Part shown: one piece after another, positions 1,675-30,577 of the stretch
Layout of the letters: the number at the start of each line of letters is the position of its first letter
Numbering within the stretch: position 1 is the first letter of the stretch
NCBI GenBank assembly: GCA_031260285.1
Contig: JAIRKD010000003.1
Location: 1-52,888 of the forward strand
Reading direction: 5' to 3'
DNA: 52,888 bases
Source of the DNA: Gemmatimonadota bacterium
Lineage (GTDB): Bacteria; Gemmatimonadota; Gemmatimonadetes; Longimicrobiales; Longimicrobiaceae
Notes under the pieces: generated by a model
Databases searched by the model: none
Seen by the model: only the letters and a program-made list of their open reading frames with translations
Told to the model about the DNA's origin: nothing
Made by a program: the position numbers and the translations under genes

Positions 1675-2963
1675 CGTGGGGGCAGCAGCTGCTGAGGGGG
1701 AATCTCCGCGCTTGCGGGGGTCCGCTCCCGGAGTGCGGCAAGCACCTTCCTCACGTCATCAACACCCACCTGGTCCAGCTCCCGGTAGAACTGCTCGGTC
1801 CCCGCGGAGTTGCCGTCACGGTCGATGAACTGGCCGATGACATCCGCCATCCCATCCGGGGTGCGCGAATAGAAGAGCATCTCATGGCGGACGGCGCGGG
1901 CCGTGGCGGTGATCCGGGTCGCGTCGAGTCTTGAGCTCATTGTGGTTACAGCCCGATCCAGTTCCGTCCGCGCCCGGGTCCCGTCCCGGGCCGGCGCGGC
2001 GACCACCAGAACAATCGCCTGCCCGAACCGGGTCCACCAATGCTCCACATCAACCTGGGTGGTGGGCAGGGTGGTTCTCAGCAGATCGCCAAGCAGACGG
2101 GCGGTGACGGTTACTGCCGCCGGAGACAGATCCGACGTCTGCCAGGCGCGTCCGTACCAGCTTCGTGTGGCTTCAGCGGGGGCCAGTGACCGGAGAGATA
2201 CACTGTCTCGGGCAGCCGCCGGGAGCAGGAGCTGGTTCACCCCTGGCAGACTGGCGAACTGCTCTTCAACATCCGCCAGGAATACGTCACCTACCGCAAC
2301 AATCGAAACCCGGTCAGGCCGGTACATCTCAGCCCAGTTTGCGCGGATGATCGCGCCGCTCATCCGCTTTGCGGACTGCTCAGTCCCCGCGGCGGATAGA
2401 TCTCCCGGGAAGAGCTGGGCACGCAGAAGGGATCGGGTATGGGACGGCGCGGTCTCCCATTCAGCCAGGCGTTCTTCCTCCAGATCGCGCTCGGCGCGCA
2501 GGAGGGCATCCACCGGTGTCTCGGGTGGCTGCAACGTCTGGATCAGCAGCCGGGCAAGTGCTGGAAGCTCCTCAGCCGGGCCGGTAGCGGTATAGATGAT
2601 TGCGTCGGACGTTCTCTGCATGGATACCTTCGCCCCGATCCGGCTCGCCCGGTCCTCAAGGGAAGGATAGATGATATGCTGGATCAGATGCCCGACGCCG
2701 GCGTACCCGGCCGGGTCCGCCGCGAGAATCGAAAGGCGCAGGGAAATCACCGGCACCCCGGGCTGACGGTGGACCGCAATCGCGGGCCCGTCCTCCCGAA
2801 AGGAGCTCTCTGGAAAGGAGCTCTCCCGAAAGGAACTGTATTCCAGCGGTTCAGACTCCCGTGTACGGGGAATCAGAACCGGGGGAGCGGCGTGAGGTGG
2901 TTGTCCGGGAGAGTTTCCCCACCCCGCAATGAATCCCGCGATGAAGACAATGCCCGCGATCAT
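1671..2963 (-). CDS. M16-like protein with E-to-Q change in the zinc motif
   Basis: With the ATG at 2963 the protein has 430 residues and a hydrophobic export or anchor segment at residues 1-16. An in-frame GTG at 3152 would add 63 Glu/Pro-rich residues of no recognisable kind, so the start is uncertain. The zinc motif reads H92-L-I-Q95-H96. Both histidines and a downstream acidic cluster (about 159-170) that could give the third ligand remain, but the general-base glutamate is glutamine (codon CAG). Such a change usually abolishes M16 activity while zinc can still bind. Residues 43-57 hold three SSFxE-like pentads from a 15-bp tandem repeat. It overlaps the second M16-like gene and lies downstream of an M23 peptidase gene, so an envelope role is plausible. 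Confidence 0.78.
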   Translation of the reverse strand: MIAGIVFIAGFIAGWGNSPGQPPHAAPPVLIPRTRESEPLEYSSFRESSFPESSFREDGPAIAVHRQPGVPVISLRLSILAADPAGYAGVGHLIQHIIYPSLEDRASRIGAKVSMQRTSDAIIYTATGPAEELPALARLLIQTLQPPETPVDALLRAERDLEEERLAEWETAPSHTRSLLRAQLFPGDLSAAGTEQSAKRMSGAIIRANWAEMYRPDRVSIVAVGDVFLADVEEQFASLPGVNQLLLPAAARDSVSLRSLAPAEATRSWYGRAWQTSDLSPAAVTVTARLLGDLLRTTLPTTQVDVEHWWTRFGQAIVLVVAAPARDGTRARTELDRAVTTMSSRLDATRITATARAVRHEMLFYSRTPDGMADVIGQFIDRDGNSAGTEQFYRELDQVGVDDVRKVLAALRERTPASAEIPPQQLLPPR

Positions 2964-3169
2964 CGTCTGATTGTTCTTCAGGGTTGCCGGATGTGATCGG
3001 GAAACATGGGTACCCCGGGGGATGACCGGAGTTGCGGGAAACGCAAAGGGAGCGCCCGTCCACCGCGCTCCCTCCTCGTTGCTCTCTTCCTGTTGGCCTT
3101 CTGTTGAATCCGCCGGTTCTGCGCCACCGCCCGGAGATCCCGCTTTCCGCACCCCCGACGCCCCGGTCC

Positions 3170-4108
3170 TTATTCCGGAAGCGCGTCGTCGCTGATGATG
3201 AAGTTGAGCGGATCCATGGAGACCCCGTTCAACTCAACCTCGTAGTGCAGGTGCGGCCCTGTGGTGAGGCCGGTGGATCCCACCTCCGCGATGGTCTGCC
3301 CGCGCTCCACCTTCTCTCCTTCACGCACCAGAATGCGGGAGATGTGAGCAAAGCGGGTCACGTACCCATGGCCGTGATCGATCTCCACCGTATTTCCGTA
3401 GCCACCGGACTGATTCCGGGCGAAGATGACCCTGCCCGCGGCCGGCGCCAGAATCGGCTCACCCACCGGGGCGGCGATATCGATCCCCTGATGTGGCCGG
3501 GAGATCTTGAGTACCGGGTGCCGCCGGCTGTTGGAGAAGAGGCTGGACAGATAACCGGTGGAAGGAGAGATCGTCGGCATCGCGGCGAGGCGGTCTTTAT
3601 TCTCCTCCAGCGTCCGCAGTGCCTCATCCATGCTGGAGCCAAGCAGATTCGCCCGCCGGAGAAGTGTGGCGAGGTCGTAGGAGGCCGCAAAGACCTGCTC
3701 ACCCAGCTGAGGATCATCCGAGTTGGCGACAAACGACTCCAGCGTCGGCGTCCCCGGTCCACCTACTCCGACCAGCTGGATCTGCTCATCAATCTCGTCC
3801 AGCCCCGCAATCGCCCGGTACCGCTCGCTCTTCGCGGAAAGGTCCTCAATCGAGGTGGACAGCTCTGCCATCTGAGAACGGAGCTCCGTTACCTCGTCGG
3901 AGAGCCGTACGCGTTCACGCTCCAGCCGCTGGGCGCGTGCATCACCCGCCCGGCTCCCGATGATCACCACTGATACCCCGGCAAACCCGAGCGCAAAGAG
4001 AAGCACGCTCGCGACCACCGTGCGGACCTTGGCTCCCGTTACCTGCAACGACCGCACGGGGTCGTCGCTGTGCGGGACCAGCATCACTGTCCACTTCGAT
4101 CTTGTCAT
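3170..4108 (-). CDS. M23 family (LytM-type) metallopeptidase
   Basis: A 312-residue inner-membrane-anchored protein. A short basic N-terminus is followed by one membrane segment (about 28-51), a coiled coil (about 57-100), a linker, and a C-terminal LytM domain. The zinc ligands are visible: H206xxxD210 in RPHQGID and H286-L-H288 in GPHLHYE. Enzymes of this type cut peptide cross-links in peptidoglycan; the intact motif suggests an active endopeptidase rather than a NlpD/EnvC-like activator. I chose the ATG at 4108, giving MTRSKWTVML, because upstream in-frame ATGs would place the terminator hairpin at 4133-4162 inside the coding sequence. Two M16-like genes follow on the same strand. Confidence 0.85.
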   Translation of the reverse strand: MTRSKWTVMLVPHSDDPVRSLQVTGAKVRTVVASVLLFALGFAGVSVVIIGSRAGDARAQRLERERVRLSDEVTELRSQMAELSTSIEDLSAKSERYRAIAGLDEIDEQIQLVGVGGPGTPTLESFVANSDDPQLGEQVFAASYDLATLLRRANLLGSSMDEALRTLEENKDRLAAMPTISPSTGYLSSLFSNSRRHPVLKISRPHQGIDIAAPVGEPILAPAAGRVIFARNQSGGYGNTVEIDHGHGYVTRFAHISRILVREGEKVERGQTIAEVGSTGLTTGPHLHYEVELNGVSMDPLNFIISDDALPE

Positions 4109-12191: not shown

Positions 12192-14492
12192 TTACGGCCG
12201 GATCAGCCGTGTGACCTTGACCACCAGACCGCGGTTCGAGAGCTCCGACCACCGGTTGTCCAGTACATCCGTGTTCCGGTCTTCCGTGTAGACCACAAAA
12301 AGCTCGCTCCCCGGGGCCCACTCCCAGCGGAAACGGAAGTTCCCGCTCACGTTGTTGGTGCCGGCGTTGTACTGCATATAACTGCTCAGGTAGGCGCGTG
12401 GAGTCAGTGTATATGTGAGCCGGGTCCGGGCAACATGCTGGTTGTACTGTACCGTTCCATTCGCTTCGGGAACGTTGATCCAGTTGAATTCGAAACTCGG
12501 TTCCAGCGAAATCTGCGGTGTGACCTCCATGCGTCCGCTGGAAAGCCGGAACAGCCTGTGCTCACCGGTATAGAAGCCGCCCCAGAGAAAGCTCACGTTC
12601 CCCTGATAGGGGCGCTGCGGACCGAACTGGTAGCTCAGCTGATACTCCATCCAGGAGTAACTGCCTGCCCCGAACCTGATCCCGGAGAATCGCCCCCCAT
12701 TGGGAAGGAATTCGTAGTTGTTGGTGGTGATGAACCGGAACCAGTCGCCACGCTTCATATCGAGCTGGACGCGTCCACCCCGATCCCGGCTCTCTACAAA
12801 GCCGGACTTGTCGTTCTCGAAGTAGTTGAGGTCACCCTGGAAGGTGATCTGCCGGAGCCAGGACGACTGCGGACGGGGGCTGTACCTTGCGCTTCCCGCG
12901 GTCTGCCGGAAGCCGGAGCGACGCACGGAGCCGATCTCGGGGTTGAAGTCATCCCCCACCACCAGGTAATCAAACTCACCTCCGAGAAGATCTCCATCGA
13001 ACAACAGTCGGCCACGGTAGCTCTGGTCGTTGCCGTCCAGACCGGGGGTATTGGACCGGGTATAATAGGAAGTGAGATAGAGGTCGCTGCTCAGACCGAA
13101 CGCGCCATCCACCCCCCAGGCGCGGTTCTGCTCTCCGGGCGCCCGGACGGACTCAGTGCGGTTCTGAAGCAGGACGCCCACATTGCTGCGGCCGAACAGA
13201 TCCCGCTTTACGCGCAGCACGGAGAAGTTGGTGTTCGGAGCCCCGACCTGCCGATCCTCAGCCGTCTGGACGCTGAGCAGGCCGACATCAAAGGAGCCGA
13301 CCTTCCCGGTAAGCCGTCCGCCTCCGAGAACCTTGAGAGGGGTGCTCCCCTGAAGGCCGATCCGCCGGGAGTAGAAGAGCGTTGGTCCGCTCCCTGTGCC
13401 TCCGGTTCCCGGGCCCGTACCACCGGTGCCGAAGTTGAAGATCCCCTGGCCTTCCAGGAAGAAGTCCCGTTTTTCGGGGAGCTGGAGGTTGAACCGGGTC
13501 AGGTTGACCTGCTGTTCATCCACTTCCACCTGGGCGAAGTCAGTGTTGGCCGTCAGCGCCAGGGAGAGGTTCTGCGTAACGGCGTACTTCAGATCCACCC
13601 CCGCATCCGCCCCGAAGTCGTTATTGATGCTGGGGTCGACAACACGGTCCGTGGTGAGCCGAGATGTGACAAACGGCTTGATCTCGATATTGCGACCGGC
13701 CGGTGGCGCCTCAATGCCAACCAGCTTGGCGTACATGGAAACGCGGAACACCCCGTTGGAGCCACCACCCGTCACCTGGATCGGCAGAGGGGTCAGGTAA
13801 TCCCACTCACTCAGGCGGAGAACCGAGCGGCGGAACTGGATGCCCCACACCTGATCCTGACCCGGCCGATAGCGCAGAGACTTGAACGGGATCGCCATTT
13901 CCACGATGTATCCACCATCAAACTGACTGGTGCCCAGATCCCAGATCGGGTTCCAGTCGAAGTTGGGGGATGATTCGTTGGTGATCTGTACATCCGCGAA
14001 GCCCCCGATCGGATTGACGAAGAAGCCAACCGAGTTGCGCCCGTCGTTGAAGGTGTCCAGGTAGACGCCGAAAGAGTCATTTGAACGGAGCTGGGCTGCG
14101 TCGCGGCGCATTTCGTTGGCGACCCACCCCGCTTTGCCTGCCGTATCCCAGACCTTTGCGGCGACATACAGATTATCGTCGTCATAAGCGATCCAGACTT
14201 CGGTGCGCTGGGTCGGTGCGGCACCCTCGTTCGGGAACCCCTGGATCAGCTGGTCGATCGGCTGGGTTACCGCATAGTGCTGCTCATCAAGATGGCCATC
14301 TGCGTGAATCGCGGAGGCGGCCCGGAAGGCCCGGACGGTGGTGTTACCGTTCGCATCCCGGCTGAGCGGGGTGGAGGGAAGCTGCGCGGTTGCCGTCCCG
14401 GCTCCGAACAGCGCAAGCGCCACCACGGTTGAGATCGCCAGAAACGGCTTACCGTTCCGGACGGGCGTCCGGAATTGAAGAATGTCCCGCAT
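12192..14492 (-). CDS. DUF5916 outer-membrane protein with CBM9-like N-terminal domain
   Basis: A 766-residue exported protein. The signal peptide covers about residues 1-37 and ends in TATAQ. A carbohydrate-binding-9-like domain follows (about 55-250, with IHADGHLDE, VWIAYDDDNLYVAAKVWD, GYIVEMAIPFKSLRY). The rest is beta-rich with many aromatic strand ends, as expected for the DUF5916 outer-membrane barrel. A Gly/Thr-rich low-complexity loop occurs near GTGGTGPGTGGTGSG. The ATG at 14492 is chosen because the signal peptide starts there; the 83 upstream in-frame residues look non-coding. The family is common in Bacteroidota and Gemmatimonadota and has no established substrate. It appears monocistronic. 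Confidence 0.85.
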   Translation of the reverse strand: MRDILQFRTPVRNGKPFLAISTVVALALFGAGTATAQLPSTPLSRDANGNTTVRAFRAASAIHADGHLDEQHYAVTQPIDQLIQGFPNEGAAPTQRTEVWIAYDDDNLYVAAKVWDTAGKAGWVANEMRRDAAQLRSNDSFGVYLDTFNDGRNSVGFFVNPIGGFADVQITNESSPNFDWNPIWDLGTSQFDGGYIVEMAIPFKSLRYRPGQDQVWGIQFRRSVLRLSEWDYLTPLPIQVTGGGSNGVFRVSMYAKLVGIEAPPAGRNIEIKPFVTSRLTTDRVVDPSINNDFGADAGVDLKYAVTQNLSLALTANTDFAQVEVDEQQVNLTRFNLQLPEKRDFFLEGQGIFNFGTGGTGPGTGGTGSGPTLFYSRRIGLQGSTPLKVLGGGRLTGKVGSFDVGLLSVQTAEDRQVGAPNTNFSVLRVKRDLFGRSNVGVLLQNRTESVRAPGEQNRAWGVDGAFGLSSDLYLTSYYTRSNTPGLDGNDQSYRGRLLFDGDLLGGEFDYLVVGDDFNPEIGSVRRSGFRQTAGSARYSPRPQSSWLRQITFQGDLNYFENDKSGFVESRDRGGRVQLDMKRGDWFRFITTNNYEFLPNGGRFSGIRFGAGSYSWMEYQLSYQFGPQRPYQGNVSFLWGGFYTGEHRLFRLSSGRMEVTPQISLEPSFEFNWINVPEANGTVQYNQHVARTRLTYTLTPRAYLSSYMQYNAGTNNVSGNFRFRWEWAPGSELFVVYTEDRNTDVLDNRWSELSNRGLVVKVTRLIRP

Positions 14493-15002
14493 TTTGAATT
14501 GAACTCCGCGCCAGAGGAGGGGCACTGTCTCTGAGAGTTGACGTTGCGAAACTATGGGGGCGACTTCAGCTTCACAAGCGAGCCGCGGTTTGTCGGGCAG
14601 GGCGCGCTTCCTGCCAGCCCTGCCGGGGCCCGGGGAAGGACCGTTCACAACTCTTCCGCGACAGCTGATCTGCCCGGGGGAAGGCCGTTGCACAGACAGC
14701 TTTCCACCATCGTCGAAGTCCGTCCGTCCACGCTTGTACATTCCGCGAGGGCCAGGATAGATTCGCGATCGTTGTCACCCGGACAGGCACTCTGCGGAAG
14801 AGCCCCGGATCCGGAAACCCCCGGATTCATTCCCGGAGATTGCTCTGACAATGGATCGGGCAGCGTTATCCTGAGAGTTGAGTGGAAGAGCTTTCCGGGG
14901 GTTCCCGGGATGTGATGAAGGGGTTCCGGAAGTTGATCGCAAGCGCCCGTTCCGGGAGCGGATCCTGAAACTGTTCTGATGATTCCAGATTATTCCAGAA
15001 AT
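14493..15002. other. Divergent intergenic region, DUF5916 gene and lipoprotein-exporter operon
   Basis: About 510 bases between two divergently transcribed units. Several frames are open through it, but none shows recognisable protein features. A short motif, CTGAGAGTTGA, occurs twice with small differences, near 14531 and 14870. The promoters of both units should lie here. No confident -10/-35 pair was found. Confidence 0.5.
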
Positions 15003-15749
15003 ATGATCTCCTGGCCATCCCGTATTGCCGCACCGCTGATTCTCGCGGGGTTTGTGATTCTCACTCCGGGCTGTGGCGACCGGAAACCTGCCGCTGAACC
15101 TGTCGAGGAACAGCCGGCCGCCATTGCCGAGCCCACCCCCGGGGAGCGCCTCCAGAATGCGGTTGACGTCTGGAGTGCCACAAGCGCCTTCCACTTCCGC
15201 CTGGCTCTGGAGAACCGGGTGATTCCGCTTGATGCCGGTGGCCTGCTGACCTACACAACCGCGGAGGGGGATGTCGTGACCCCGGACCGCATGCAGGCGC
15301 AGACGACCGTACGGACTCCGGTGGGGAACGCCCAGGTCGCGTTCATCTCGATCGGCGATCGCCAGTGGATCACCAACCCGCTGAGCCGTCAGTGGGAAGC
15401 GGCCCCGGCGGGAACAGCCGGCGCAGTTGCCAGCGCCTTTGATTCCCGGACGGGCATCGGAGCAACTCTCTCGGGGCTGGCCGAGCTTCAGTACACTCCG
15501 GATGAGCGGCTTGACGGGACGCCTGTCTACCGGCTGAGCGGGATCCTGCCGGGCACGGTGCTGGCGGGGTTCGCGGCGGATCTGTCCGCCGTCCCCACGC
15601 TGCAGGTCGACCTGTTCATCACCCCCGCTGACAACCGTATCCGCCGGATTGTGGTGCGCCAGCCGGCCACACCGGAGGGCGCGGTTCCCAGCTGGACGTT
15701 CGACTTCTCGAACTTCGATGTGCCCGTTCCGATCGAGCCTCCCCTGTGA
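15003..15749 (+). CDS. LppX/LprAFG-family lipoprotein (LprG-like)
   Basis: A 248-residue lipoprotein with a signal peptide at residues 1-23 and a probable lipidation cysteine at C24 (ILTPGC, a slightly atypical lipobox). The mature part matches the general pattern of the mycobacterial LppX/LprG fold. It has beta strands with conserved tryptophans (RQWITNPLSRQW), a central TPVYRLSGILPG stretch, and the family-typical closing segment FDFSNFDVPVPIEPP. These proteins hold lipids in a hydrophobic cavity; LprG works with the MFS exporter P55 (Rv1410c) in triacylglyceride and lipoglycan traffic. Its stop overlaps the GTG of an MFS transporter by four bases (GTGA at 15746), which repeats that operon. 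An alternative ATG at 14979 adds eight residues. The family assignment rests on pattern memory, not a search. Confidence 0.78.
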   Translation: MISWPSRIAAPLILAGFVILTPGCGDRKPAAEPVEEQPAAIAEPTPGERLQNAVDVWSATSAFHFRLALENRVIPLDAGGLLTYTTAEGDVVTPDRMQAQTTVRTPVGNAQVAFISIGDRQWITNPLSRQWEAAPAGTAGAVASAFDSRTGIGATLSGLAELQYTPDERLDGTPVYRLSGILPGTVLAGFAADLSAVPTLQVDLFITPADNRIRRIVVRQPATPEGAVPSWTFDFSNFDVPVPIEPPL

Positions 15750-17278
15750 GATCTTCCCGGGCAGGTTGGCTGGCGCTGCTTGCTGTCAGTATCAACGTCT
15801 TCACCGCGGCTCTTGACCTTACCGTCATGGCCGCGGTGCTTCCCGGCCTTATCCGTGACTTCGGAATCCCCATCCCCGGTGGTCTCGCTGACGCCTCCTG
15901 GATCGTAAACGGCTACCTCATCGCCTATGTGGTGACGATGCCGATCATGGGGAAGGTGAGCGATCTCTACGGCCGGCGGCTGGTTTTCCTCGCGTGTCTG
16001 GTACTGTTTTCCGTGGGGTCGGTCTGGGCCGCGCTGACAAACGGTCTCTGGATGATGGTTGCCGCCCGTGTGCTCCAGGCACTTGGAGGCGGGGCGATGG
16101 TCCCCGTGGCGCTGGCGGCGGTGAGTGATGCGGTTTCGGACCGGCGCCGGCCGCTTGCGATCGCGGCGGTTGTCGCCGTTGACACTGCCGGGTGGGTCGC
16201 CGGGTCAGCCTACGGCGCCTGGATCACCACCTGGCTCGGATGGCGCTGGGTCTTCTGGCTCAACCTCCCGGCCGCCCTGCTGGGAATTGTGCTGGTTGCC
16301 GCCGCGCTCCCCCGTCACGAACGCACCCAGCACCGGCTCGACATCCCCGGCGCTGCGCTGCTTACGGTCTTTCTCTTCGCCATCACCATGGTGCTGTACC
16401 TCGTGGCGCCGGCGAGCCCCGAGATGGGGCTGCTGCCCTCCAGCGCACCTGTGCAGCGCTCTCCCTGGTTCTGGCCGCTGGCCGGTGTTTCCATCGCCGC
16501 GCTTGCGGGCTTCATCTACCAGGAAAAGCGGACCCCCGAGCCGGTGATCGACTTGCGCCTGCTCTCCGAACGGGTGTTTGCGGCGGCCAACGGGGTGAGC
16601 CTGCTGACCGGTGTGATCCTCATGTCGATCATGGTGGAGATCCCCGTCCTGCTTCAGGCCGTGACCGGCTCGGTGGATGAGGGAACCCGGATGAGTGGTC
16701 TCCTCCTGGGAACCTTCGCCGCAGGGATGATGGTAGGAGCCTTTGCGGCCGGACCCATCGTCCGTCGGGTATCTGTGCGGCTGCTGACGCTGCTCGGGCT
16801 CTCGGGACTGGTGATCGCTCTCTGGCGGATGTCGAGCTGGGAGTTTACTCACCCCCCGCAGACTCTGCTGATCCCGCTTTTCGCGGCAGGTCTCGGCCTC
16901 GGGTTTGTGACAACGCCGCTTGCGACAGCTGTGCTTGAACGGGTTCGGGAGGCGGATCGGGGAATCGCGGCGTCCATCCTTCTTGTTGCCCGTCTGAGCG
17001 GGATGACCATCGGGCTCTCCGTTCTGGTCACCTGGGCGCTCCGTCGGTTTGATGCGCTGGTGGCGGCTGTTCCACCTCCTCCCGGCGGACTTTTTGACCC
17101 GGGTGCCGCCGCTTACATCGCGGAACAGGCAGCCCGCGTTATGACAACGGTCATTACGGACCTGTTCACCGCCACGACTATCATCGGTCTTCTGGCGATT
17201 GTCCCCGCTCTTTTCCTCCAGGGCGGGGGAAGATCAACCGACCGGAAGATGCCTGATGCGGCGGACAACGGTCTGTAG
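15746..17278 (+). CDS. MFS transporter of the DHA2/P55 type
   Basis: A 510-residue polytopic membrane protein with about 14 predicted membrane segments. TM1 carries an acidic residue (D24 in ALDLTVM). Motif A is GKVSDLYGRR at 69-78. An acidic residue, D146, sits in TM5 before the G-rich stretch GWVAGSAYG. A long periplasmic stretch lies between the last two helices (about 430-475, PPPPGGLFDPG). Related proteins are drug or lipid exporters powered by protons. Coupling to an LprG-like lipoprotein gene points to lipid or glycolipid export, as for P55, rather than plain drug efflux; this is inferred from context. The start is GTG at 15746, overlapping the upstream stop. Confidence 0.85.
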   Translation: MRSSRAGWLALLAVSINVFTAALDLTVMAAVLPGLIRDFGIPIPGGLADASWIVNGYLIAYVVTMPIMGKVSDLYGRRLVFLACLVLFSVGSVWAALTNGLWMMVAARVLQALGGGAMVPVALAAVSDAVSDRRRPLAIAAVVAVDTAGWVAGSAYGAWITTWLGWRWVFWLNLPAALLGIVLVAAALPRHERTQHRLDIPGAALLTVFLFAITMVLYLVAPASPEMGLLPSSAPVQRSPWFWPLAGVSIAALAGFIYQEKRTPEPVIDLRLLSERVFAAANGVSLLTGVILMSIMVEIPVLLQAVTGSVDEGTRMSGLLLGTFAAGMMVGAFAAGPIVRRVSVRLLTLLGLSGLVIALWRMSSWEFTHPPQTLLIPLFAAGLGLGFVTTPLATAVLERVREADRGIAASILLVARLSGMTIGLSVLVTWALRRFDALVAAVPPPPGGLFDPGAAAYIAEQAARVMTTVITDLFTATTIIGLLAIVPALFLQGGGRSTDRKMPDAADNGL

Positions 17279-17336
17279 CCTCCTCCGGAAGACCGGAAAG
17301 AGGATGTTGAAACCAGATGCCGGAAAGAATGGACAT

Positions 17337-17816
17337 ATGATTTCTGAAATGCAGCGGGATACCGCCCGGACGATCAGCAGAGCCCCGCGCCTTGCTCTCC
17401 GGCAGGGGACCTCGGCTCTTCAGCAGAGAAAAATCAACAACTCCGGGTTTGATGGCCGCCTTCCCCGCACGGCCTCTTCCCGCAGCCTCCGGTACGGAGC
17501 GCTGGCGCTCCTGGCCCTGCTGATGCTCACCGGATGCTCAACAACACTTACGATCAACCAGCTTCTGTCCTCTCCGCAGCGTTATGAGGGGCAGACGGTC
17601 CGGGTTCAGGGGAGTGTGACCCGCGGCATGGGCGTGCTCGGCATGGGCGGCTATGAGCTGGACGATGGAACCGGCCGGATCCTTGTTGTTGCCCGAAGCG
17701 GAGGCGTGCCTCTGCAAGGCGCTCGTACACAGGTAGTCGGGCGCTTCCAGTCAGTGCTGAATATGCCCGGGCTGAATGTGGCCGCGATCCTTCAGGAGGC
17801 CCGCAAGCCTCGCTGA
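17337..17816 (+). CDS. Small OB-fold lipoprotein
   Basis: The clear part of this product is a hydrophobic segment ending in a good lipobox (LLMLTGC) and a mature domain of about 95 residues. That domain has the pattern of a small OB fold (LLSSPQRYEGQTVRVQGSVTR, then YELDDGTGRILVVARSG). Such domains occur in exported proteins that bind nucleic acid, sugars or protein partners; the ligand here is unknown. The start is uncertain. The ATG at 17337 gives 159 residues with an unusually long 60-residue leader before the hydrophobic segment, and an ATG at 17304 also exists. It begins about 60 bases after the MFS gene on the same strand and may belong to that operon. Confidence 0.65.
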   Translation: MISEMQRDTARTISRAPRLALRQGTSALQQRKINNSGFDGRLPRTASSRSLRYGALALLALLMLTGCSTTLTINQLLSSPQRYEGQTVRVQGSVTRGMGVLGMGGYELDDGTGRILVVARSGGVPLQGARTQVVGRFQSVLNMPGLNVAAILQEARKPR

Positions 17817-24294: not shown

Positions 24295-25062
24295 TCAGAA
24301 CCGGAGGGAGATGCCGACGGTTGCGACAACACTCGAAAGATCAATGGGCTCAAAACCTTCAAACTCCCGGGGAAGGTCGCGGGAAGCCCGGGTATATCCT
24401 GCCTCGCCGGACAGGAGGATACGGGGGGTCAGGCTGTAATCAACCCCTCCCAGGAGCTGTGCCGCCGGGGCCCAGCCGTCTGCCTCGATGGAGTTCGAGA
24501 AGATCGAGAGCTCCGGGTCCGCGAAGTTGATGAAGTCTCCCTCCTGCCGGAACCGGTAGTGTACGGCCCCCGCTCCGGCCCCGATATACGGCGCGAGCTT
24601 TGACGGTACCCACGCAAAACTTCCGATCTGCTGGCCGGTCGGGACCAGATAGAGTTTTGCCTGAGCCATGATCGGTGTCCGGGCGAACCGGGTAGTCTGT
24701 GTTATCGGCAGATCACCAGTTGCGGATTCCTCAACGAAGTTGCGGTACTCGGAGTCAACCGTCCGGCTTGAGTAGCCGAGGGAAGCACCGATGGCTATCC
24801 GGGGGTTGATGTTGAAGAAAAGCGCGGTGTTGACGGCGGCGCCCCGGAAATCGCCGTCATTAATCGTGAGCCGCTCACTGATATCGGTGAACAGGTCGCT
24901 GGAAGCCCGGGGCAGGCCGAGCCCGCCCTGGAGCGACAGGGTGACCAGAGGGGGGCGGAAGAAATATCCGTTGCCTGAACTCTGGGCCGCGCCGGGTGTG
25001 ACTCCGATGACTGTAGTGGTCAGGAGCAAACTGGTAACGGCAAGGATGGATCTGATGCGCAT
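24295..25062 (-). CDS. Outer-membrane beta-barrel protein
   Basis: A 255-residue exported protein with a signal peptide (residues 1-26, ending in GAAQ). The mature part has alternating hydrophobic strands rich in Gly and aromatic residues (VTLSLQGGLGLP, IAIGASLGYSSR, LAPYIGAGAGAVHYRF, ILLSGEAGYTRASR) and ends in ISLRF. A terminal phenylalanine is the usual recognition signal for BAM-inserted barrels. The size fits an 8- to 10-stranded OmpA/OmpX-like barrel, probably structural or adhesive rather than a large-solute channel. It is first in a two-gene operon with the exported protein at 23019-24284. No specific function can be given. Confidence 0.75.
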   Translation of the reverse strand: MRIRSILAVTSLLLTTTVIGVTPGAAQSSGNGYFFRPPLVTLSLQGGLGLPRASSDLFTDISERLTINDGDFRGAAVNTALFFNINPRIAIGASLGYSSRTVDSEYRNFVEESATGDLPITQTTRFARTPIMAQAKLYLVPTGQQIGSFAWVPSKLAPYIGAGAGAVHYRFRQEGDFINFADPELSIFSNSIEADGWAPAAQLLGGVDYSLTPRILLSGEAGYTRASRDLPREFEGFEPIDLSSVVATVGISLRF

Positions 25063-25367: not shown

Positions 25368-27230
25368 TCAGTTGACCGGAGCGTACTTGGCACTGCCCGC
25401 AAGCGGCTGGCAGGGTTTTGCGGGCGTCCCATCGCAGGACGCATCCACAACGCCACCAAAGGAGTATGGCGCATACGGCTTTTTGTACCAGGTCACGACG
25501 TTACCCGGAACCGGAAGGTGCTGGAATGCGCCGTCCTCCAGCATCCCGAATCCGCGTGAATCCGTGTAGCCACGGAGCACGTCCTGACCGGCAAGCTCAA
25601 GCATACGCTCGTACCGGAGCGCTGTCATCAACGTTCCGCAGCTGCCATCATCCTGCCGCGGAACACAGAAGCCATTGGCATCTGTCGGTACCACGGTGGC
25701 ACCCGCCGGAATATCCGGAAGACCACCCTTTGCCCGTGACTTGTTGAGGAGCGAAATGGCCTCATCAGCCCGACCCAGATGAAGCAGCGCCTCTGCCATG
25801 AGGAGATCATTCTCCCGCGCCGTGATCAGAGCCTGGTCTCCGTTCTGACCGTTTGCCGTACCAGCGGCGATGTTGACAGTGCCAGTGGCGCCTCTACAGG
25901 GGACCTGCTGCTCAAGGCGGTGGCGTCCGAACTGATACGCCGAAAAGAGGTGGCTGCCACGGTCAGCAACAAACCCGTTGTTATCCGCGCGGTAGCAGGT
26001 ATACGTGCCATCGGACGTCGGGTTCGGAATCCCGTTGCGGTACGTCCCTGTAATGCGACGATCAGGGGTTACGATATTAAACCGCTCCCGTGTAGAGAAC
26101 GGCTTGCTGATCCAATCCCGGTAGTTGGAAGTGGTTTTGCTTGTGAGTGTGGAATCTGCCCCAACGGTAAACGGCTGGTCCGCCATACCGATGGTGTGGT
26201 AGTTCCAACGCCCGTTATTGGTGCCACCAGTCGTGTTGCCCTGCATACGGGTAAGCATCCCCGATGCCCGGGAACTCGACAGCTGGATCCGATAATCATT
26301 TCCCTCTCGTACACCCTTTTCCGTATATGCCAGTACCGTGTCCCAGGGAAGCGCAGCCCGCCCGGCAGGGTCACGCGCGCTGAGGACAAGGATACGGGCG
26401 GCAAGGGTGTTCGCCATCTGTGCGAACTTCTCCTTACTGACCGCCGCTGACGTTCCGAACCAGGTGACCTGCCCTTTTTCCTCAGGGAAAGCGAACTTTA
26501 CGGGGTCGGTTGCAGGGTCTTCGGCAATACGGATTGCCTCATCCAAAGCCCAACGCGCGCTATCCACGCCCAACTTCCATTCGACAAGTCTGGTTGCTGA
26601 CCATTCGGTATGGGCTCTGTAATCGCCCTCTCCGCCCGGAACCACATCAAACTCGGTAACGGTATGGATTGAGTCGAAGAACATCGCTGCATACCCCCAC
26701 GCCCAGCCCTGAACAAACTTGGCGAATGCCCGCATCCGCGGAACATACACTCCAGCGGCAGCAAACCTCCCGGAATCGGCATTAAGAGCCATCAAGCCCT
26801 CGCGGGGCAGATAGTTTGCTCCACCGATTTCGTCCCAGAACGTCCGCGGGCCCCACTCACAGACCGCGTTACAGATCAGGGAAGCGTTGTTGATCCTGCG
26901 TCGTGGCGCGGGAAGGTCCCGGGCGTACGCAACGTTACCCCCCTGCAGTGTGGCGGTCTGCTCGGCGGACGCGTATACAAACGAGGCCGTATACCAGGTT
27001 GCTCCCGCCGGATTCCCATTGGTGCTGCCGTTGATGACCGGGTAGAGCATGCTTGTAAAGCTGCCTCCGATCAGTCCCTCAAACTCCTTCGGCTGCTTCC
27101 TGAGCGTTTCAATCGGAGGGTTATTTCTGTTGTCAACGATCAGGTCCTGACAGGCAGTAGCTCCGAGCAGCACCGTCCCAAGCAGGACGCCACTCCAGCC
27201 CCTCCGTCGGGTTGTTGTATTCATAAACAT
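25368..27230 (-). CDS. SusD/RagB-like outer-membrane lipoprotein
   Basis: A 620-residue SusD-family protein. The signal peptide ends in LLGATAC, so C27 is the likely lipidation site. The TPR-like helical SusD core is visible (FAKFVQGWAWGYAAMFFDSI; then the C-terminal LITARENDLLMAEALLHLGRADEAISLLNKSRAKGGLP, which is the classic SusD hallmark; and TALRYERMLELAGQDVLRGYTDSR). SusD proteins form the lid over a SusC TonB-dependent transporter and catch oligosaccharides or peptides. The SusC gene lies 29 bases upstream, so they form an operon. No glycoside hydrolase or peptidase accompanies them, so the nutrient cannot be inferred. A terminator follows. Confidence 0.92.
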   Translation of the reverse strand: MFMNTTTRRRGWSGVLLGTVLLGATACQDLIVDNRNNPPIETLRKQPKEFEGLIGGSFTSMLYPVINGSTNGNPAGATWYTASFVYASAEQTATLQGGNVAYARDLPAPRRRINNASLICNAVCEWGPRTFWDEIGGANYLPREGLMALNADSGRFAAAGVYVPRMRAFAKFVQGWAWGYAAMFFDSIHTVTEFDVVPGGEGDYRAHTEWSATRLVEWKLGVDSARWALDEAIRIAEDPATDPVKFAFPEEKGQVTWFGTSAAVSKEKFAQMANTLAARILVLSARDPAGRAALPWDTVLAYTEKGVREGNDYRIQLSSSRASGMLTRMQGNTTGGTNNGRWNYHTIGMADQPFTVGADSTLTSKTTSNYRDWISKPFSTRERFNIVTPDRRITGTYRNGIPNPTSDGTYTCYRADNNGFVADRGSHLFSAYQFGRHRLEQQVPCRGATGTVNIAAGTANGQNGDQALITARENDLLMAEALLHLGRADEAISLLNKSRAKGGLPDIPAGATVVPTDANGFCVPRQDDGSCGTLMTALRYERMLELAGQDVLRGYTDSRGFGMLEDGAFQHLPVPGNVVTWYKKPYAPYSFGGVVDASCDGTPAKPCQPLAGSAKYAPVN

Positions 27231-27259
27231 AATAAGGCTATCTATCCTTGGTTCCGGGA

Positions 27260-30200
27260 TCAGAAGGTCAGTGTAGCGTCAACAGTCCAGGTCCGGGTCG
27301 ACGGATACCGGGCCACACCCACCGAGCTTTCACGGGTGTTAAGATCTGTCGCCTGTTCCGGGTCGAACCCTCTGTAACCAGTGATTGTGAAGACGTTACG
27401 ACCCGTGAGGCCGATCTGGGCACTCGAGATCCCCAGGCCTTTCAGTCCCCACTGCTCGAACTGCGCCCGGTTGAAGCGGTAACCCGCCGAGAGGGTACGC
27501 ATCTTCAGATAGCTGCCACTCTCCACAATCATGCTGGTACCACCGCTGCCCATAACCGCATAGTAGGCATACGGCTTCTTCAGGCCATCGGCCTTCCCGA
27601 ACTGATCAATCAGGATGTTGTTCCGCTCGTTTGCACCCGTGGGGCTGGTGGTCATCTCCAGCAGCTGGCGGTTGTTCGCAACCGCTCCAAGCGAGGCATG
27701 CAGCTGGGCGCTGAAGTTCCAGTTATGGTAGCGGAGAGTGTTCGTCCAGCCGATGTTCATCGGCAGGGCGTCTCCGAGGTCCTTACGCCAGGCATTACCG
27801 TTCTCGTCAGCCTGGTTGATGGGGAGACCCCACTGATAGACCTGACCACCGATCGACTTTGTTGTTCCCCAGGTGCCCGGCTGGATCTTGCCGTCAATCA
27901 TGCCCTCATTCCAGTGCTTGTCACCAACCCAGACGAGGTAACCATCGTCATTCACTTCGAACTCATTGGCGAGCGCTTCTGCGCTGCCACCGACGTGGTC
28001 AGCAAGATCGGCCTTCGAGGTCATGACATAGTTACCCCATGTGGAGTACGTCTTCTCACCCTGGCAGGTAAGTCGATAGTTCTCCGTCATGCAGGGGATC
28101 GTCCAGGAGTCGATCATTGACGCCGAACGGTCTGCGGTGACCAGGCTGTTCCAGCCGACATTCGGATTCTGGATGATGTTGCCTTCCAGTTGAAGCTCGG
28201 TTGTGTGGCCTCTTACGGATCCGGCGTTTACAACCATTCCGGAGAAACCGTCCCAGTTCGGAAGGACTTTTGCACCCGGAACGATCTGGTCAACAGTGCG
28301 CTGCCAGGCGTGTGTCAGCGTAAGGCCGACTTTCTTGAAGAGAATCGAGTTGAGTGATACCTCGTTCTCAGTCGTCTTGGAGGGCTTGAGGTTGGGGTTC
28401 CCCATCTGTCCAAGCGACGGAACGCCATCCGTATTGAGGTTAAGCGTCTGGTACTGGGCATTGAAGTTCGGACGCCCACCCGCTGTACCCCGCGCGAAGC
28501 TCAGCTTGAACTCGCTGACGTGAGGAACATTGAACCATTTCTCCTGACCCATCCGCCAGGCTGCAGCGGTGCGATAGTAGCTCTGCCAACGTTCATTCAC
28601 ACCGAACAGGGAGCTGCCGTCCCGCCGGCCAAGTGCCGTCAAGGTATACTTGCCGCCGTAGTCCAGTCCGAGGTCCACGAGGTACCCCGACGCACGGATC
28701 TCCGTCTCGGAAGAGGTCACCTGCTCATTGGCACGCGCAACAGCCCCGAAGTTCGGAACGCCAGGCACGGTGAGTCCCTCACCGGTGCGGCTGGACTGAT
28801 TGCGGAAGTCCCGCTCGACGAGTGTCCGACCTGTCAGCCTTGCGTTAAGAGGACCAAAATCTCGACGAAGAGACAGCTGCGCATCAGCGTTGAACGTGTC
28901 GTTGCCGTTATCATCGAAGTTCAGGTACCCGTCATAGTTCGGTGCGGCATTGTCAATCAGCGTAGTGCCCTTTGGTCTGTACTGGCTGGTATGCTGCTCG
29001 CCCCGGTTGTAGCTGACCGTTGAGTTGGCGGTAAGCCAGCGGAAGGGATTCCAGGAGTACTGTCCGCTGATCAGCGTTTGGTTCCGGAGCATATCCGATT
29101 GCCGTACATGCTGTGACCAGAGCGCGCTCTGTGTGGAAATTCCGGACAGCGGGTACTGCGCAAACTCCCCGTTCTCGTCCTTCGCCGCCACATTGATGTA
29201 ACGAGGCGCGAGCAACGCGTTTGTGAAGATCGCATCGCCGTAATCCTCATCACGGCCCTCACGTGCGTGGCTCATCGACATGCTGAGGCTCATCGTCTCA
29301 CGGAACCGGTGGTCCAGATTCATCCGAACCGAATTCCGATAGTATCCTTCGTTGTCAATAACAACGCCCGTTTCCTTCGTCCGGGAGAGACTCACATTGA
29401 AGTTTGTCTCAAGCGTGTTCTGAGCGATTGTGAAGTTGTGAGACTGATAGAGACCAGCACGCGTAATGTTGTCGAGGTTGTTGTAGATCGTCCCCGGGAA
29501 CGGCTGGTCGTAGAACTGCAACGAAGTAGCGCTGTTTGCGATGCTGTTCCCCGCTATTACGGATGTGGGGAGGGCTCCGTTAGCCACAAGCTGGTCAACT
29601 CCGCGCAGGGGATAACCACGCTCAATGGCGCCATTGTTAGAAGTAGATGTAGCCGGGGTATTGAGTGGAACCTCAGCACCAAACTTGTTCAGCCAGCCTC
29701 CGTTTGCGTTGATCGCCCATGGCTGATGGGTCGCCATCTCCAAGTTGAACGGTTCGGTCACACCAACCTCGGTGTGGAGCGAGAACTGTGTCTGGCCCTG
29801 CTGGAGCTGAGAACCGCGCTTGGTGGTGATCGAGATCACACCAGCCGCCGCCCGGGAGCCATACATCGAGGCGGCCGCCGCCCCGCGGATGACTTCCATG
29901 CTCTCAATGTCCAGACCCTCGATCGCGGAGGTTGAAGAGCCCGAGGAGCGGCCGTTACCGCCGTCCGGGGCGCTGAGGATCACGCCGTCAACCACGATCA
30001 GCGGCGCACCGCCACCGAAGAGGCTGGTTGTCGTGCGGAGAACCACGCTTGTGCCTTCACCCGGCTGACCGCTCGCGCGGTTCATCTGGACGCCGGCAAC
30101 GCGTCCCTGGATGTTCTGCACGGCGCCACCCGCGGCGGCAACCGGCATGTTCTCGGAGCTGACCCGCGCAACCGAGATCGGTGAACGAACGCCCTCAACC

Positions 30201-30577
30201 GGATCAACAAGGCCGGTCGCGACAATCGCCTCAAGCGAGAGTGCCGCGGTCGACATGCGCAGGGTGACCGAAGTCGCGCCGGTGGCACCAACAACAACCC
30301 CGTTCTGGGTCAGCTGCTGGTAACCGATGCGCTGCGCAACAATCTGATAGGTGCCGGCCGGAACGCCCGTAAGTGTGAAGGTTCCCGTCGCGCTTGTGAT
30401 CGCGTTGCGGGAGGTCCCTTGCAGATATACCTGCGCGGTGGGGATCGGCTGACCGCTCGACTGATCCACCACCGTACCAGTAACCGTTCCGGTCTGAGCG
30501 TGCCCCGTCGCCGGGAGCGCCGCCGCCGCCACGAGGGCGGCGAGTACTGCGCCCTTCCTCAAACTTTGGCAAAACAT
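27260..30577 (-). CDS. SusC/RagA-like TonB-dependent outer-membrane receptor
   Basis: A 1105-residue protein. The signal peptide is residues 1-28 (ending in GHAQ). A carboxypeptidase-regulatory-like domain follows (about 30-115, GTVTGTVVDQSSGQPIP to GTYQIVAQRIGY). The plug is at about 130-255, with the SusC-type stretch IEGLDIESMEVIRGAAAASM and ITTKRG. A large barrel ends in WTVDATLTF with the terminal aromatic residue. It imports a nutrient bound by the downstream SusD partner, using TonB energy. The ATG at 30577 has an excellent Shine-Dalgarno sequence, AAGGAGG, ten bases upstream. That sequence can pair in a small hairpin (30589-30600), which suggests translational tuning. More than 1 kb of non-coding DNA lies upstream. 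Confidence 0.95.
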   Translation of the reverse strand: MFCQSLRKGAVLAALVAAAALPATGHAQTGTVTGTVVDQSSGQPIPTAQVYLQGTSRNAITSATGTFTLTGVPAGTYQIVAQRIGYQQLTQNGVVVGATGATSVTLRMSTAALSLEAIVATGLVDPVEGVRSPISVARVSSENMPVAAAGGAVQNIQGRVAGVQMNRASGQPGEGTSVVLRTTTSLFGGGAPLIVVDGVILSAPDGGNGRSSGSSTSAIEGLDIESMEVIRGAAAASMYGSRAAAGVISITTKRGSQLQQGQTQFSLHTEVGVTEPFNLEMATHQPWAINANGGWLNKFGAEVPLNTPATSTSNNGAIERGYPLRGVDQLVANGALPTSVIAGNSIANSATSLQFYDQPFPGTIYNNLDNITRAGLYQSHNFTIAQNTLETNFNVSLSRTKETGVVIDNEGYYRNSVRMNLDHRFRETMSLSMSMSHAREGRDEDYGDAIFTNALLAPRYINVAAKDENGEFAQYPLSGISTQSALWSQHVRQSDMLRNQTLISGQYSWNPFRWLTANSTVSYNRGEQHTSQYRPKGTTLIDNAAPNYDGYLNFDDNGNDTFNADAQLSLRRDFGPLNARLTGRTLVERDFRNQSSRTGEGLTVPGVPNFGAVARANEQVTSSETEIRASGYLVDLGLDYGGKYTLTALGRRDGSSLFGVNERWQSYYRTAAAWRMGQEKWFNVPHVSEFKLSFARGTAGGRPNFNAQYQTLNLNTDGVPSLGQMGNPNLKPSKTTENEVSLNSILFKKVGLTLTHAWQRTVDQIVPGAKVLPNWDGFSGMVVNAGSVRGHTTELQLEGNIIQNPNVGWNSLVTADRSASMIDSWTIPCMTENYRLTCQGEKTYSTWGNYVMTSKADLADHVGGSAEALANEFEVNDDGYLVWVGDKHWNEGMIDGKIQPGTWGTTKSIGGQVYQWGLPINQADENGNAWRKDLGDALPMNIGWTNTLRYHNWNFSAQLHASLGAVANNRQLLEMTTSPTGANERNNILIDQFGKADGLKKPYAYYAVMGSGGTSMIVESGSYLKMRTLSAGYRFNRAQFEQWGLKGLGISSAQIGLTGRNVFTITGYRGFDPEQATDLNTRESSVGVARYPSTRTWTVDATLTF

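Follow-up and report, generated by a model that had tools for sequence, protein, structure and literature searches.

The LprG-P55 system has been studied as a mycobacterial virulence device sealing the mycomembrane with triacylglycerol (TAG). It is encoded by lprG-rv1410c (P27-P55) in Mycobacterium tuberculosis and by MHAS2167/68 in M. hassiacum, and in both cases the gene for an LppX_LprAFG lipoprotein with the LprG fold precedes the gene for an MFS transporter of the DHA2 type. The M. hassiacum homologue of Rv1410/P55, MHAS2168 (PDB 8pnl), has been described as having periplasmic extensions of TM11 and TM12 (PMC10576003). Remm et al. described a Glu (TM5)-Arg (TM11) pair that is shared by 17 mycobacterial homologues and lacking in 46 characterised MFS transporters, mutation of this ion lock impairing or inactivating transport (PMC10576003). 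PIM and lipoglycans are further ligands of LprG (PMC8829022). In LppX-MmpL7 and LolA-LolCDE, described in the literature, a periplasmic LolA-like carrier is likewise served by an inner-membrane transporter, which is of the RND or ABC type rather than an MFS protein.

We analysed a 52,888-nucleotide stretch of a Gemmatimonadota genome (contig JAIRKD010000003.1), hereafter the window, in which an LppX/LprG-type lipoprotein gene lies directly before an MFS gene on the same strand, in the order of the lprG-p55 operon (Table 1). The two genes share the GTGA start/stop overlap described in the original prediction, and their translation is likely to be coupled through it; loci L009, L019, L148, L149, L153, L155, and L159 offer a GTG at this -4 spacing too. 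We conclude, with a probability of about 0.75, that the pair is a horizontally acquired lipid exporter of the LprG-P55 type.

Table 1. Coordinates of the features discussed, numbered from the first nucleotide of the window.
Feature	Position	Strand	Evidence or remark
LppX/LprG-type lipoprotein gene	15003..15749	+	PF07161 match; lipobox ILTPGC, Cys codon 15072
Start/stop overlap GTGA of the lipoprotein and MFS genes	15746..15749	+	four shared bases
P55/Rv1410-type DHA2 MFS exporter gene	15746..17278	+	8pnl match by sequence and fold; LppX-linked clade in trees
Displaced acidic partner of the putative ion lock, codons D146-T147 of TM5	16181..16186	+	DTAGW motif; alignment
Small lipoprotein ORF	17199..17816	+	lipobox LTGC; OB-like by eye; outside the conserved unit
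Large DUF5916/CBM9-like protein gene	12192..14741	-	directly upstream of the pair
Weak OMP beta-barrel match	24298..25062		adjoins the SusC/SusD-like pair
SusD-like and TonB-plug/CarboxypepD_reg (SusC-like) gene pair	25371..30577	-	nutrient-uptake type locus

The lipoprotein ORF extends from 14979 to 15749 (+ strand), with two possible starts, at 14979 or at the ATG in 15003. In an HMM search, its product matched Pfam family LppX_LprAFG (PF07161) with 65.1 bits (E = 1e-17), above the curated cut-off of 24, and it is the only copy of this family in the source genome. The putative lipobox is non-canonical, with Pro at -2, and its Cys is invariant in 17 relatives of the protein. A single-sequence phmmer search against the PDB returned only E = 0.66 to LppX, and a profile built from 17 relatives was needed to reach LprG (E = 4e-14). 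AlphaFold models of the lipoprotein and of the MFS protein were obtained from alignments of window and related-locus proteins. The lipoprotein model (pLDDT 87) displays the LprG fold, with helices against an antiparallel sheet. Its nine best PDB matches were all LprG, LprF, or LppX (TM-scores of 0.64-0.80), headed by LprG in its apo, PIM-bound, and TAG-bound forms (3mh8, 3mha, and 4zra; 0.69-0.80), and LolA and LolB came far behind (0.30-0.54, LolA reaching at most 0.54). The Pfam score and the modelled fold thus confirm the LppX/LprG type that had been assigned to the protein in the original prediction.

The transporter (PF07690) is related by sequence to MHAS2168 (8pnl, 178 bits) more closely than to the other solved proteins EfpA (86), EmrB (70), and QacA (59), and is about 31% identical to its mycobacterial counterpart in structural alignment. 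The model (pLDDT 89) also retrieved 8pnl first with Foldseek (E = 1.3e-22), followed by EfpA (2e-19) and EmrB (1e-17), TM-scores not separating these three. The window protein resembles mycobacterial P55 and MHAS2168 in being a DHA2 transporter with an Asp in TM1, an Arg in TM4, an Arg in TM11, an acid in TM5, and long TM11 and TM12 helices; its TM9-TM10 loop is shorter. The TM1 and TM4 residues, D24 and R108, are found at functional positions of MHAS2168, and both are also common in other DHA2 transporters. The lengths predicted for TM11 (39 residues, 402-440) and TM12 (36 residues, 454-489) are in line with the periplasmic extensions of MHAS2168. As a marker, the length of the TM11-TM12 region was discarded because loop length did not separate the transporters linked to an LppX gene from the unlinked ones.

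The original prediction presented the pair as lying outside actinobacteria; the surveys did not support its being rare there. When 84,980 species genomes were scanned with an MFS alignment, the nearest relatives of the transporter were located in Chloroflexota and in one Gemmatimonadetes MAG from Lake Baikal; the genome scan with the lipoprotein alone as the query gave no match. An LppX gene was located directly upstream in every locus with an MFS score above 480 bits and enough upstream sequence. Using an LppX alignment, LppX-like lipoproteins were detected in 174 of 400 Chloroflexota genomes, and an MFS gene was present directly downstream on the same strand for 57 of the 70 best lipoprotein genes (24/30 and 33/40). 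Chloroflexota LppX-like genes with no adjacent P55-like MFS gene were also observed (L122, L132, L135, L141, L144, L145, L169, L175, L179, L188, L193, L194, and L201), some of them at contig ends. In Gemmatimonadota, the gene-order survey recovered the pair in only 3 of 395 genomes, those of the window, G095, and G333; weak LppX-profile matches (20-24 bits) with no adjacent MFS gene in seven more genomes were excluded from this count. The lprG-p55-type pair is therefore no actinobacterial speciality: Chloroflexota carry it commonly, Gemmatimonadota rarely. Such a pair also occurs on annotated plasmids of actinobacteria, at 1710-3994 of the mobilizable Rhodococcus plasmid pRZP2 (L148, NZ_CP058639.1) and at 1737-4096 of a Tsukamurella plasmid (L149, NZ_LR134454.1). 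The pair is thus able to travel, and these plasmids are a possible vehicle for its spread. Among the papers searched, none named LprG or LppX alongside either Chloroflexi or Chloroflexota, and no biochemical evidence for the LprG-P55 clade outside mycobacteria was found.

The ion lock was examined in the LppX-linked transporters with both columns readable (n = 66) and in unlinked DHA2 transporters (n = 61). An acid was present in all 66 linked proteins, in the Glu column for 53 and one residue earlier for 13, and in none of the 61 unlinked ones (Fisher p of 1e-37, indicative only since related sequences are not independent events). The acid is therefore a mark of the LppX-linked clade. The TM11 Arg (R416 column), present in 64/66 linked and 35/61 unlinked proteins, was dropped as a marker on its own. 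In the window protein, Thr147 occupies the position of the lock Glu, Asp146 lies one residue earlier than the mycobacterial acid (DT for QE), and R416 is present; D146 and R416, as read from the sequence, are thus a putative lock. The displacement by one residue defines a conserved subtype, [DE]TxGW, to which the window transporter belongs. A third variant was seen in the linked transporters L155 and L156 (genomes G766 and G820), in which the lock position reads DD and Gln replaces the TM11 Arg.

In a larger, quick tree of 97 transporters, all LppX-linked proteins fell into one group (SH-aLRT 96), which includes P55 of mycobacteria, Rhodococcus, Tsukamurella, Kribbella, and Pseudonocardia and is neighboured by unlinked Chloroflexota DHA2 proteins. 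The sole member of this group scored as unlinked, L043, belongs to a locus that begins inside the transporter gene, its upstream gene being out of view. A careful tree of 51 transporters separated linked from unlinked proteins (93/85). In this tree, the window protein joined the DTxGW subtype of Chloroflexota (88/91) at the end of a long branch, and the G095 and G333 transporters nested among Dehalococcoidia. The window transporter thus groups with P55, apart from drug-pump-like DHA2 proteins, and the relationship to lprG-Rv1410c proposed from the sequence is upheld by profile, fold, tree, ion-lock residues, and gene order alike. The sister clade of the LppX-linked group, a distinct set of Chloroflexota DHA2 proteins (L011, L015, L018, L021-L023, L026, L030, L032, L033, L035, L040, L041, and L054), has neither an adjacent LppX gene nor the ion-lock acid, and its TM1 motif is LELM, not LDxT.

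The lipoprotein tree repeated both placements independently, the window protein falling among the DTxGW-subtype LppX proteins of Chloroflexota (98/96) and the second placement having 98/90 support. This agreement indicates that lipoprotein and transporter travelled together. A topology uniting the transporters of the three Gemmatimonadota genomes was rejected (AU test, p = 2e-35), and with it a shared acquisition; there were therefore at least two acquisitions in Gemmatimonadota. The pairs of G095 and G333 have the phylum, the order, and the succession of the two genes in common with the window but differ in being of the Glu subtype, in nesting among Dehalococcoidia, in lying beside truB and ribF, and in their separate acquisition. 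The MFS proteins of these two genomes are 73% identical, and infB and ribF 72-78%, which, on these sequences, fits vertical inheritance since acquisition. The Chloroflexota DTxGW pairs (L016, L162, L165, L166, L171, L187, L190, L192, L197, L198, L202, and L203) share with the window the subtype motif, the gene order, and the group in both protein trees but have MFS proteins at most about 39% identical to that of the window and hosts devoid of LPS and of the typical outer-membrane gene set (PMC8871954). The window pair lies inside a Chloroflexota-rich clade, and a Chloroflexota-like source is its apparent origin.

Such a transporter could also be a DHA2 drug or xenobiotic efflux pump, with the lipoprotein acting as an accessory or capturing hydrophobic drugs. 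The DHA2 fold and a match of 168.8 bits to TIGR00711 (EmrB-type DHA2 drug pumps), albeit below the curated cut-off of 230.2, are compatible with this explanation, and P55 entered the literature as a drug pump (PMC8829022), LprG/P55 having long been read as a drug-resistance pair. It is nevertheless unlikely, since the linked transporters form a clade separate from unlinked DHA2 pumps, the lock acid was absent from the 61 unlinked DHA2 proteins, the ion pair is reported to be missing from 46 characterised MFS transporters (PMC10576003), the partner lipoprotein has the fold of a lipid carrier, and a defective envelope is now given as the reason for the drug phenotype of the mycobacterial pair (PMC8829022).

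Concerning the cargo, the original prediction pointed to the mycobacterial arrangement as known for moving TAG and lipoglycans, but TAG is a doubtful cargo here. No copy of WS/DGAT (PF03007), the usual TAG synthase of bacteria, was detected in the source genome, in G001, G095, or G333, or in eight Chloroflexota genomes bearing the pair, most of these genomes being drafts; two actinobacterial genomes tested contained seven and two copies. The window pair thus differs from the mycobacterial pairs both in this respect and in residing in an LPS-type diderm host that has no mycomembrane. Since WS/DGAT alone was searched, and in draft genomes, this result makes TAG a less likely cargo, though still a conceivable one, and the lipid handled by the pair is probably not WS/DGAT-made TAG as judged from gene content. 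A true TAG exporter as in mycobacteria, supplied by an enzyme other than WS/DGAT, would accord with the presence of TAG-bound LprG (4zra) among the closest folds, but is improbable given that the synthase was not found in the pair-bearing Gemmatimonadota and Chloroflexota genomes searched, incomplete as these MAGs are. Because LprG binds PIM and lipoglycans too, some other acylated lipid is the more plausible candidate for the cargo of this exporter.

A small OB-fold lipoprotein gene following on the same strand had been put forward as a possible added third part. An ORF with a lipobox does lie there on the plus strand, its OB fold being a reading of the sequence, but the product matched no Pfam or NCBIfam family and had no relative in 60 related genomes or beside any other pair. 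The neighbours of the pair vary by lineage, with no recurring functional neighbour or third gene. The conserved unit is therefore the pair alone, and the small gene was rejected as a component for lack of conservation. A three-part system is accordingly very improbable, even though the ORF would start only about 58 bases past the MFS stop if its start is 17337, with no terminator pattern between.

The Gram-negative, outer-membrane character expected of the host is supported. Gemmatimonadetes are counted among LPS diderms, and Chloroflexi lack LPS and have an outer-membrane gene pattern as in monoderms, their envelope being debated (PMC8871954). The window contains SusC-like (TonB-plug/CarboxypepD_reg), SusD-like, and MlaD genes, indicating that the host has an outer membrane. 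The large DUF5916/CBM9-like protein encoded next to the pair, on the opposite strand, is probably an outer-membrane barrel. On the evidence of its genes, the contig is native to its Gemmatimonadota host, and this host is a diderm. Bin contamination by a Chloroflexota contig, and hence the lack of a diderm host, is very unlikely despite an estimated contamination of 4.78% and a pair typical of Chloroflexota, since DnaE encoded on this contig shares 76% identity with that of the same genus and 36-43% with those of Chloroflexota, the adjacent M3 peptidase is 57% identical to those of same-family genomes, the contig also carries genes of the SusC/SusD and beta-barrel types, and two further Gemmatimonadota genera bear the pair, in the truB-ribF context.

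Based on the mechanism of the relatives (PMC10576003, PMC4709180), the exporter might operate as follows. The proton-driven DHA2 transporter would draw a lipid that is acylated and mostly apolar out of the inner membrane and into its cavity, coupling being provided by the putative D146-R416 lock together with D24 and R108. The lipid would be handed over at the periplasmic face, beside the long TM11 and TM12 helices, which may shield it during passage into the anchored LprG-fold carrier. The latter would then move the lipid outward, presumably towards the outer membrane. Our tentative proposal, held somewhat short of even odds, is that a Chloroflexota-like donor supplied an LPS-type diderm with an MFS transporter driven by protons and an LprG-type carrier that together move a non-TAG lipid across the periplasm. 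If so, the pair would add to Lpt, Lol, and Mla a further route of lipid export, one that needs no ATP. TAG would then not be the ancestral cargo of the LprG-P55 clade as a whole, and the ion lock used by the DTxGW subtype would be a displaced one.

That the pair, with its unusual ion lock, extends through Chloroflexota and reaches a small number of diderm Gemmatimonadota indicates that the basic function of LprG-P55 predates the mycomembrane or is independent of it, and is probably independent of WS/DGAT-made TAG. The pair also offers new non-pathogenic, partly thermophilic homologues for structural work, and the DTxGW motif provides a natural lock variant with which the proton-coupling model may be tested.
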